Source: Thermoflexus hugenholtzii JAD2 (GTDB taxonomy: Bacteria > Chloroflexota > Chloroflexia > Chloroflexales > Roseiflexaceae). From it: a DNA stretch of 50,769 nt. The stretch is taken from assembly GCA_945881915.1 (NCBI GenBank), contig CAMCVW010000024.1, positions 1 through 50,769 of the forward strand, read 5' to 3'. Made by a program: the position numbers and the translations under genes. Positions within the stretch are counted from its first letter, which is position 1; the number at the start of each line of letters is the position of its first letter. Shown one piece after another: positions 39,558-44,295 of this stretch. The notes under the pieces are model-generated. The model was not told the DNA's origin. It was given only the letters and a program-made list of their open reading frames with translations, and did not search any database.

Positions 39558-40598
39558 TCAGCGCGACACATCGATGAGGTCACGCAACATGGCGGCGGCG
39601 GTGGGCATGGGACCACGTTCGGCCGAGGTTGCCGAGGCGCGGCCCGAGATGTCGGTATGGTAGACCACGCCCATCTCCCACTCGCTCATGCGAGCCAAGG
39701 GGTGATCGGCCGGCAGGGCGGTTGGTTTGACGCTCAGGTCATAGCTGCCGGCAGCATTGCGTTCGGCTTTGCAGAGCAGCACGATGCGCTGGCCCTGGGC
39801 GACAGCGTTGGTCAAATCGGCAGCGGTCAGGGCGGTGATGCCGGTGACCGAAAAGTCGCGCACGTTGGTGGGTTGATTGAGGACGGCATTGGCGACGATG
39901 GTCAGTTTGTTGGCGGCATCCCAGCCTTCGACGTCGAGGGTCGGATCGGTCTCGGCCAGGCCGCGCTCCTGGGCTTCTTTGAGCGCTTCGGCGTAGCTGC
40001 CGCCGCGCTCCATGCTGCGCAGGATGTACTGGGTGGTGCCGTTGAGGACGCCCTCGACGGAGTGAATGACCGAGCCAGCCAGATCACGGCGACCGAGGTT
40101 GATGGTCGGCAAGGCACCACCGACACAGGCCGAAAAGCGCAGCTTGGGTTTGGACGGATCGCCGCCCATGTCACTCAATACGGCGAGTTCGGGGTAGGCC
40201 AAGGCCAATGGGCCTTTGTTGGCCAGGATGGCGTGCATGCCGCGTTTGAGGGCGGTGCGCACGGCGCTCAGGCCGGGCTCGGCGGTCTGCAGGTTGACGG
40301 GAGTGGCCTCGACGAAGGCGTCGGCGTCGATTGATTCGACCAGCCGTTGGGCGATGAGGGATGCGCTCCCGCCGGGCAGCGAGGCGACACCGCGCTTGGC
40401 TTCTTTGGTGGCGATGAGCAGGTCGATGTCGAGGCCGTTGGGATTGCTGACACCGCCGCTGGAGTCACAGACGGCGACGACGCTGACGGTCAGCTGGTAG
40501 TTTTTGGCCAGTAATGCCTGCTGTGATTTGATAATGCGGAGCAGATTCAGGTTGACATTGCCGAGGCCGGCGATGATAAGACGTAATGTACGTGGCAT
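39558..40598 (-). CDS. hom: Homoserine dehydrogenase
   Basis: 346 residues; GAGGACC precedes ATG 40598. Reduces aspartate semialdehyde to homoserine, precursor of methionine and threonine. NAD(P)-binding GLGNVNLNLL near the start (GxGxVxxxxL type), catalytic-domain motifs HAILANKGPLAL, GGALPTI, EGVLNGTTQYIL, and AETDPTLDVEGWDAANKL. The ACT regulatory domain of the long form is absent, so it is the short, about 340-residue form. Follows the RAYT gene by 15 bases on the same strand, so its transcript may start upstream of the transposase. Confidence 0.95.
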   Translation of the reverse strand: MPRTLRLIIAGLGNVNLNLLRIIKSQQALLAKNYQLTVSVVAVCDSSGGVSNPNGLDIDLLIATKEAKRGVASLPGGSASLIAQRLVESIDADAFVEATPVNLQTAEPGLSAVRTALKRGMHAILANKGPLALAYPELAVLSDMGGDPSKPKLRFSACVGGALPTINLGRRDLAGSVIHSVEGVLNGTTQYILRSMERGGSYAEALKEAQERGLAETDPTLDVEGWDAANKLTIVANAVLNQPTNVRDFSVTGITALTAADLTNAVAQGQRIVLLCKAERNAAGSYDLSVKPTALPADHPLARMSEWEMGVVYHTDISGRASATSAERGPMPTAAAMLRDLIDVSR

Positions 40599-40613
40599 AG
40601 TGGTCCTCGTTTA

Positions 40614-41150
40614 TTATGCGGTGCTTGCTCTATTGTAAAGCAGGCGCTGCTGGTCGAGGCGACGTTGGGCCTCGCGTGGGTTGTTGCGGATGTAGCGGCG
40701 TACATTATTCAAGTAGGAACGCGTTCGGATTAATTGATCGTCATAGTCACGTTGCCAGACCTGATTGATTGATAGAGAAACGATGCGTCGTGTACATGCA
40801 GCTTTGAAAAGTCCGATGAAAGATGAAATAGATTTACTCAATCGTTTGCTCATAATGCCGAACGGCGGTGCAGGCAGAAAATGTGTCGAACGCTTCATCT
40901 GAACTAACATTTGGACATGGTCAGGCATGACAACAATGCAATCAAAGTGCATAAGCGGCCGGAGGATTTTGGATTTTTCCCATTCTTGCATCACAATATT
41001 CCCGAATTCGTTGAGGTGCATCTCCCCATGTTGAATTTTGCCAAAGAGCTCTTGGCGTTGATGCGTCACGATGGTGAGAAAGTACCAGCCTTTAGAACTG
41101 TAATTCCACTGCTGATTCCTACGTGAATTGCGTCGTCGACGCTTGATCAT
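40614..41150 (-). CDS. REP-associated tyrosine transposase (RAYT) homologue, altered HUH
   Basis: 178 residues, AGGATACGTTC before ATG 41150. Y1-transposase fold of the IS200-like superfamily: GWYFLTIVTHQR (first strand), LNEFGNIVMQEW, VVMPDHVQMLV, SSFIGLFKAACTRRI, VWQRDYDDQLIR and YLNNVRRYIRNNP. In characterised TnpA-REP proteins the pair of metal-binding histidines (His-hydrophobic-His) lies in the MPxHxH motif and the catalytic Tyr in the YIxxNP motif. Here they are H78-V-Q80 and Y153: the second His is Gln. Single copy here with no second ORF or IS ends, so it is not an IS200. A 30-bp R1 palindrome lies 40 bases upstream. RAYTs are thought to maintain or spread REP repeats. It precedes hom. 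Confidence 0.88.
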   Translation of the reverse strand: MIKRRRRNSRRNQQWNYSSKGWYFLTIVTHQRQELFGKIQHGEMHLNEFGNIVMQEWEKSKILRPLMHFDCIVVMPDHVQMLVQMKRSTHFLPAPPFGIMSKRLSKSISSFIGLFKAACTRRIVSLSINQVWQRDYDDQLIRTRSYLNNVRRYIRNNPREAQRRLDQQRLLYNRASTA

Positions 41151-41189
41151 GAACGTATCCTTTCGAAATGGAGAGCAGGGTTTATTTTC

Positions 41190-41219
41190 GGGTGGGGTTT
41201 ATTGCAATAAACCCCACCC
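41190..41219. repeat. R1 palindrome, copy 2 (30 bp, perfect)
   Basis: GGGTGGGGTTTATTG (41190-41204) is joined to its exact reverse complement (41205-41219). Same core as the copies at 34371 and 44270; the outer bases differ but the two arms have changed together. A partial half (AGGGTTTATT) precedes it at about 41177. It lies 40 bases before the RAYT start. Confidence 0.9.
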
Positions 41220-41245
41220 AATTCAAACCATATATGAAGCCGCAT

Positions 41246-41288
41246 AAAAACCCCCGTACGGATGAATCCATCATTCATACCGTCGGGG
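41246..41288 (-). terminator. Terminator after the SDR gene
   Basis: On the reverse strand a GC-rich stem (41288 to about 41273 with 41267 to 41252, containing one bulge) is followed by GTTTTT. It lies between the SDR and RAYT genes and ends SDR transcription. Confidence 0.7.
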
Positions 41289-41314
41289 ATGGTGAAAAAG
41301 GTACGCGGGTTTTT

Positions 41315-41354
41315 GCGTCCAGAGCGTCACACAGCTGTGTGACGCTCTGGACGC
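41315..41354. repeat. Perfect 40-bp palindrome
   Basis: GCGTCCAGAGCGTCACACAG (41315-41334) is followed immediately by its exact reverse complement (41335-41354), with no spacer. Preceded by GGGTTTTT and followed by the 18-bp tandem array. No protein is encoded. It could form a cruciform in DNA or a hairpin in RNA. Confidence 0.93.
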
Positions 41355-41485
41355 GGGACGGGGACGGACGACGGACGACGGGACGGGGACGGACGACGGG
41401 ACGGGGACGGACGACGGGACGGGGACGGACGACGGGACGGGGACGCACGCCGGGACGGGGACGCACGCCGGGACGCCGGGACGCC
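41355..41485 (+). repeat. 18-bp minisatellite array
   Basis: Unit GGGACGGGGACGGACGAC appears at 41355, 41380, 41398 and 41416; variants ending GCACGCC follow at 41434 and 41452, and shorter GGGACGCC units close the array. Also built from a 6-base GGGACG motif. It lies directly downstream of the SDR stop (41497), 11 bases away, and would read as arginine/proline/valine repeats but has no ribosome site. Confidence 0.93.
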
Positions 41486-41496
41486 AATCCGTAAAA

Positions 41497-42270
41497 TCAT
41501 TTCCCCCCATCGATCGCAATGACCTGCCCCGAGAGCCATCCGGCGTATTCCGACGCCAGAAAAAGCACCCCGTGCGCGATGTCGTTGGGTTGGCCGAGGC
41601 GCTGGAGGGCGATGGATTGCACCAGATTGTGTTGCACTTCGGGGCCGTACGCGTCCCATTGGCGTTGGGTGTTGGCATTCGAAAGCACGAATCCCGGTGC
41701 GATATTGTTGACCGTGATGTTGTACGGTCCGAGCTCGTGGCAGAGCTGGCGCGTCAGATTAATCTGGCCGGCCTTGGCCGTGGCATATGCTTGGATGCCC
41801 GTCAGGCTCGGTCCCAATCCGGCGCCGCTCGAGATGTTGATGATGCGGCCGCTGCGGGCCTGCTTCATCCCTGGGGCAGCCGCCTGCGCAAAGTAGAACG
41901 CGGCCGACATGTTGACCGCGATGATGGCATTCCATTGCTCGAAGGTCACTTGCTCGAGCGGCTGACCCACCTGGCCCAAGACGCCGCCGGCGTTGTTGAC
42001 TAGCACGTCGACGTGACCGCTGGCGGCCGACGCAATTGCCTCGTTCACGAACGCCGTCACTTGGGTCGGATTGCTCACGTCTACCGTACGGACGCTGCAT
42101 TGGCCGCCGTCGGCGCGGCACAACGCCTGCGTCTCGGTCAGCTCGGCCGCGATCAAATCACACGCCCAGACATTGGCACCACGGGCCGCGAAGGCCTGCG
42201 CGATTGCCCGCCCGAACCCGTGAGCGGCACCGGTCACGATAACCGTTTTGTTGGTGAATTCGATGTGCAT
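41497..42270 (-). CDS. SDR family oxidoreductase
   Basis: 257 residues from ATG 42270; an in-frame start 21 bases earlier is possible. Classical short-chain dehydrogenase: cofactor motif TGAAHGFG (13-20), NNAGG (92-96), Ser147/148 in NISSGAG, catalytic Tyr162-x-x-x-Lys166 in AYATAKAG, and C-terminal SGQVIAIDGGK. Asp38 in ACDLI suggests NAD(H) preference. Probably a dehydrogenase of a hydroxy-sugar, hydroxyacid or similar. Substrate unknown. The last gene before the tandem array. Confidence 0.9.
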   Translation of the reverse strand: MHIEFTNKTVIVTGAAHGFGRAIAQAFAARGANVWACDLIAAELTETQALCRADGGQCSVRTVDVSNPTQVTAFVNEAIASAASGHVDVLVNNAGGVLGQVGQPLEQVTFEQWNAIIAVNMSAAFYFAQAAAPGMKQARSGRIINISSGAGLGPSLTGIQAYATAKAGQINLTRQLCHELGPYNITVNNIAPGFVLSNANTQRQWDAYGPEVQHNLVQSIALQRLGQPNDIAHGVLFLASEYAGWLSGQVIAIDGGK

Positions 42271-42312
42271 CACGCCTCCCATGCCCGACACAGCGTCGGT
42301 TCGGTATTCTCG

Positions 42313-44269: not shown

Positions 44270-44295
44270 GCGGGGTTTATTGCAATAAACCCCGC
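44270..44295. repeat. R1 palindrome, copy 3 (26 bp, perfect)
   Basis: GCGGGGTTTATTG (44270-44282) followed by its exact reverse complement (44283-44295). Again next to R2 units, as at 34296-34406. Confidence 0.92.

Follow-up and report, generated by a model that had tools for sequence, protein, structure and literature searches.

Can a REP-associated tyrosine transposase (RAYT, or TnpAREP) with glutamine in place of the second histidine of its HuH motif still be a working enzyme? The question is raised by an open reading frame of 178 amino acids in a Roseiflexaceae genome, located on the minus strand at positions 40614-41150 of the window, i.e. the whole stretch of 50,769 nucleotides that was analysed. 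The frame begins with an ATG and encodes a RAYT/TnpAREP homologue whose residues 75-82 read MPDHVQML. The codons of His78-Val79-Gln80 (CAT GTC CAA, 40911..40919, minus strand), recognised by codon comparison and by a pattern match spanning 40911-40934, replace the HuH motif. The H-V-Q reported at residues 78-80 in the original prediction is borne out by the translation; the CAA codon of Gln80 lies at 40911-40913, about two codons away from the bases 40917-40922 given there, which encode codons 77-78 (Asp-His). The tyrosine of the YIxxNP motif, said to be kept, was found together with its asparagine. Tyr153 of YIRNNP (40692..40694, minus strand), the presumed nucleophile, is invariant in the 43 other aligned rows, and Asn157 (40680..40682, minus strand), at position Y+4, is, from the alignment and the excerpted text of PMC6006769, the presumed third metal ligand, the counterpart of N119 of E. 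coli TnpAREP. The gene is also full length and has a good ribosome site, as predicted: no stop or frameshift interrupts the 178 residues in either of the two species that carry it, and the Shine-Dalgarno-like GAAAGGA 5′ of the ATG has the same letters in both.

The assignment to the RAYT family was upheld; the nearest sequence and fold matches of the protein are Y1 transposases. The NCBIfam profile NF047646 (REP_Tyr_transpos, REP-associated tyrosine transposase) matched with an E value of 2.2e-16 and 60.1 bits, a score below the curated cut-off of 80 bits, and a Pfam search of the protein returned no family at E 0.001. An AlphaFold2 model (mean pLDDT 88.5, pTM 0.82) has a predicted Y1 transposase fold: Foldseek ranks IS200/IS605 TnpA and the E. 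coli RAYT 4er8 highest in the PDB, and VIA-align placed 4er8 first (Z 12.5 and rmsd 3.1 over 128 residues), level with IS608 TnpA (12.4). In the family profile, the WQ...YIYINP of 4er8 aligns with the WQ...YI..NP region, and its PEHMH likewise falls on the motifs. At 22% identity, however, this best structural match keeps the second histidine (PEHMH, against HVQ here) and has FWEHAIRN where the window protein has YDDQLIRT.

Compared with the features that define RAYT class 2, the protein has the Y---NP motif with a third ligand at Y+4 (Y153, N157, P158) and the conserved tryptophan before it (W132-Q133), and lacks an HuH with two histidines (H78-V79-Q80). The Y---Q of IS200/IS605 TnpA is absent (Y153...N157). 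Members of the class also have a flanking REP with a conserved 5′ tetranucleotide; here perfect palindromes adjoin the frame, and four genomes have the repeat without the gene. Because the second histidine, a defining feature, is missing, the gene is, as judged by its motifs, RAYT-derived or RAYT-like rather than a strict member. By the same motifs (WQ, YIxNNP) the protein appears nearest to TnpAREP subclass 2.4 of Quentin et al. 2018 (PMC6006769; Bertels group 4), with which, according to the excerpted text, it shares YIRNNP (Y---NP), WQ, a low-copy chromosomal gene, diverged paralogues in the genome and palindromic repeats adjoining the gene. It differs in its HVQ, and also in that the excerpt describes subclass 2.4 with REPs mostly inserted within the gene, whereas no perfect palindrome of at least 18 nt lies inside this frame. 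Relatives at four other fetched loci (L006, L008, L011 and L016) have perfect palindromes at the RAYT gene or within it (e.g. GAGACGCACGGCCGTGCGTCTC), as described there for subclass 2.4. The His-u-Gln motif itself is that of CRESS-DNA Reps (HUQ, here HVQ), such as those of circoviruses and smacoviruses. Unlike these, the window protein has its closest sequence and fold matches among Y1 transposases, and its candidate third ligand, Asn157, stands four residues after the tyrosine, whereas that of circovirus Rep, in the part of the source available, is Glu44, upstream of the motif.

How unusual is Gln80? Once the window protein and its orthologue are set aside, an alignment of 45 homologues has His in column 80 of all 43 remaining rows; the frame finder behind this count let through H or Q alone at that residue. 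The rows derive from 67 frames in the fetched loci, of which 48 were left at 90% identity; L001, identical to the window protein, and four frames with long inserts or truncation (L020, L034, L035 and L067, all HxH) were left out. A separate census that allowed any letter gave HxH at every RAYT locus fetched by then, apart from those of the HVQ pair. Because mostly top-scoring matches were fetched, the sample is biased towards intact genes. Free of this score bias, a DNA-pattern scan for [V/I/M]xMP[N/D]H(L/I/V/M/F)Q across 301 Chloroflexota genomes gave six matches, among which the window gene is the only RAYT; other spellings, e.g. PEHxQ, would escape this pattern. Four of the remaining matches are in proteins that we take to be ketol-acid reductoisomerase-like (MLMPDHVQ), and the sixth is a chance frame of 28 residues. 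In a sample of the same size, RAYT matches at E 1e-20 occurred in 77 of 301 genomes.

The class search (158 genomes, E 1e-28) recovered only the window gene and the orthologue, and the genome contig search the orthologue and one relative at 36%, which has HVH. Two distant matches came from the plasmid search (Leptolinea, which reads MPNHFHA, and Spirosoma), and a viral-contig scan yielded no relative. Among titles and the starts of abstracts, in a coverage that mostly excludes subscription journals, no paper was found that pairs HUQ with a RAYT or an IS200-type transposase, and the term 'HuQ' is absent from the excerpted text of PMC6006769. A wider HUQ-RAYT subfamily was not found, the 301-genome pattern scan giving no other RAYT with HxQ. 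The original prediction had named a normal His in all relatives as an outcome that would speak against it. This is nearly what was observed, all relatives examined having His with the exception of one orthologue with HVQ. Since that orthologue stands alone, Gln80 is, on the alignments at hand, a lineage-specific change and marks no recognised HUQ subfamily.

Apart from this residue, the active site is largely preserved. The invariant columns of the alignment (Y17, G37, G50, M75, P76, H78, K116, W132, Y153, N157 and P158) are all kept. A conservation threshold of 85% among the other rows selects 25 columns; the window protein deviates at four of them (N16, Q80, L82 and A161), the other rows at 0 to 5. 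Two further differences lie before the catalytic helix: D137 (Y137D; Y in 32 of the other rows, H in 8, M in 2, W in 1) and Q139 (H139Q; H in 31, R in 11, S in 1). Residue 139 is probably not a metal ligand, because arginine is common there. A long stem, with 1.77 changes per column, leads to the window protein and its orthologue. In E. coli TnpAREP and IS608 TnpA, the excerpt of PMC6006769 describes a metal held by two histidines and the residue at Y+4 (N119 and Q131, respectively). The Mn2+ of duck circovirus Rep has as its ligands His52 and Gln54 of the HUQ motif and Glu44 (PMC9973303), and a smacovirus Rep paper (PMC10833120) notes that the motif can be histidine-U-glutamine. Because these Reps use HUQ, glutamine is an acceptable metal ligand in this superfamily, and a plausible one at position 80 of the window protein.

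The gene occupies a short interval between two neighbours on the same strand. Downstream, 15 bases after its stop codon, begins a gene which from its sequence we take to encode a homoserine dehydrogenase-like protein (39558..40598, minus strand); upstream, the list of open reading frames gives a presumably SDR oxidoreductase-like gene (41497..42291, minus strand). In four congeneric genomes (G002, G005, G009 and G010) these two genes are adjacent, 29 bases separating stop from ATG, with no RAYT between them. In the window and in the sister species (G007), the spacer (40599-41496 in the window) is taken up by the RAYT and palindromes. The G003 locus gave no SDR match within the stretch fetched, and G001, G004, G006 and G008 no dehydrogenase match at E 1e-60. 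A hairpin followed by TTTTT, 3′ of the SDR-like gene and 5′ of the RAYT (41251..41288, minus strand), is conserved at the orthologous locus and looks like a terminator; it went unreported in a scan for consensus terminators. Because of this hairpin and T-run after the SDR-like gene, and of the 15-base gap, the RAYT and the dehydrogenase-like gene may form one transcript. A promoter scan for the sigma-70 consensus, which says little beyond that consensus, found nothing, and Rfam gave no match. Positions 41352-41493, on the side of the 40-nt palindrome (described below) that faces the SDR-like gene, hold six overlapping copies of an 18-base tandem repeat with a GACGG-rich unit. The sister species lacks these repeats and has there a second palindrome copy of the 30-nt type.

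Palindrome and genome searches revealed two perfect palindromes upstream of the frame. The first, of 30 nt (41190..41219), has the core GGTTTATTGCAATAAACC, found at 11 places in the window genome (G000) and 11 in G007 with at most one mismatch; the second, of 40 nt (41315..41354), has a 32-nt core found at three genome places with at most three mismatches. The 30-nt core is present in six of 11 genomes of the genus (G000, G001, G004, G006, G007 and G008). Three of its 11 places in G000 lie in the window (34380, 41196 and 44274); for a uniform genome, the chance that at least two of the ten other copies fall within 7 kb is about 0.0009. In a by-eye comparison of the RAYT matches listed for the six genomes, in which many contigs were short, the HVQ gene is the only one that has the core on its contig. 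The palindrome need not be the partner of this gene, because four genomes (G001, G004, G006 and G008) have the core and the HVQ gene was not found in them. An HxH RAYT of the L004 type, matched by sequence and coordinates, was recognised in exactly the core-bearing set of genomes, so the partner may also be this one.

Eight of the nine palindrome regions fetched from G000 align with regions of G007 fetched for the palindrome, and at the ninth site (44274) G007 also has a palindrome, with paired changes. For this reason most copies look old and orthologous between the two genomes, as far as the alignments indicate, and the palindrome was rejected as proof of recent mobility by the HVQ enzyme. 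At the ninth site (44274-44291) the core reads TTTATTGCAATAAA in the window and TTTCTTGCAAGAAA in the sister species (L108, G007:C80), the paired changes preserving the palindrome; the arms of other copies likewise differ in matched pairs. Another RAYT of the window genome (L003, G000:C60), with MPNHVH, has a perfect 32-nt palindrome of its own at 2098-2129, about 130 bases 5′ of its start.

The gene of the sister species allowed selection to be estimated. This syntenic orthologue (L005, apparently one record with G007:C80, as each lies on a contig of 7043 bases) also encodes HVQ, with a synonymous change at V79 and the same CAA at Gln80, and differs at 21 of 537 bases elsewhere. A sequencing error at the CAA codon, named in the original prediction as a possible source of the anomaly, was rejected on these grounds: nothing was found in favour of a sequencing or assembly fault, the same codon recurs within diverged sequence, and only one artefact common to both species could mimic it, which leaves a negligible chance. 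Gln80 unchanged in one orthologue pair is in itself weak evidence. Across the whole gene, 14 changes are synonymous and seven non-synonymous, giving a dN/dS of 0.126 (binomial p 1e-5 against equal rates). Six amino acids differ, five of them outside the motifs at residues 86-101, in the loop that follows the HuH strand. In the same two genomes, HxH RAYT paralogues gave 0.149 and 0.249; a third HxH pair gave 0.066, at a dS of 1.64 that is near saturation and with the G007 copy flagged for a TGA stop. Four neighbouring genes at the locus range from 0 to 0.087. By these ratios the HVQ gene is constrained like the HxH paralogues and less than its neighbours. This purifying selection shows that the protein matters, and is not proof of cleavage. 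It also disfavours an early pseudogene, in which an inactivating substitution would have struck a gene now decaying, with stops still to accumulate. The substitution does affect a catalytic position, and the repeat content does vary between the orthologous spacers; a rate ratio like that of the HxH paralogues, a frame open in both species and a conserved ribosome site nevertheless make such decay quite unlikely. The RAYT assignment and the HVQ anomaly of the original interpretation stood, and its 'degraded enzyme' is disfavoured by the dN/dS of 0.126 and by the other catalytic residues, all kept.

Since selection still preserves the gene, a working variant is predicted to be more likely than a broken copy. 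What would the variant do? An active HUQ enzyme is the best-supported reading, because glutamine is a proven metal ligand at the equivalent place in circovirus Reps, and we give it about as much belief as doubt. In its full form, a Y1/RAYT-type enzyme working with a natural HUQ metal site, in which the ligand swap of circovirus Rep arose independently among bacterial REP-associated transposases and was kept by selection, it is put forward tentatively, with doubt slightly ahead. Against such activity stand the other RAYTs examined, which are without Gln at this place, the long stem, which could mean a changed function, the departures at D137 and Q139, an NF047646 score below the cut-off and the empty Pfam search at E 0.001. 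Some of the same observations lead to the main rival, a catalytically silent, domesticated binder of DNA hairpins, in which loss of the second histidine ended metal-dependent cleavage and which was kept to bind palindromes or as a regulator of its own locus, the dehydrogenase-like gene downstream included. An otherwise invariant residue has changed on a long branch, the gene is single-copy at one locus shared by two species, and it lies directly 5′ of the dehydrogenase-like gene, the terminator-like hairpin setting both apart from the SDR-like gene. A protein that only binds, however, has no obvious need for Tyr153, Asn157, His78 and Lys116, all retained despite high divergence, and we consider such a silent binder possible without being probable.

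In the leading reading, the gene is chromosomal, derives from RAYT/TnpAREP and is fixed at a single locus within one lineage of Roseiflexaceae, and its product most likely still acts as a Y1 single-strand DNA nuclease and strand-transferase. Its metal would be held by His78, by the side-chain carbonyl of Gln80 and by Asn157, and Tyr153 would attack the phosphate and form a 5′ phosphotyrosine. Replacing the tyrosine by phenylalanine inactivated three TnpAREP proteins, according to the excerpted text of PMC8266576. The substrate would presumably be a hairpin, and the palindrome repeat next to the gene is the best candidate for it.

Activity of this protein would mean that the second histidine of HuH is replaceable in bacterial Y1 transposases. 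It would also mean that HuH-based filters for functional members discard real enzymes; the survey of PMC6006769, as its excerpt describes, retained only sequences having both the HuH and the Y motifs. If the protein is inactive, it would be a clean natural case of a RAYT retained after catalysis was lost. Either way, the reason why selection maintains RAYTs can be tested directly on this one gene.
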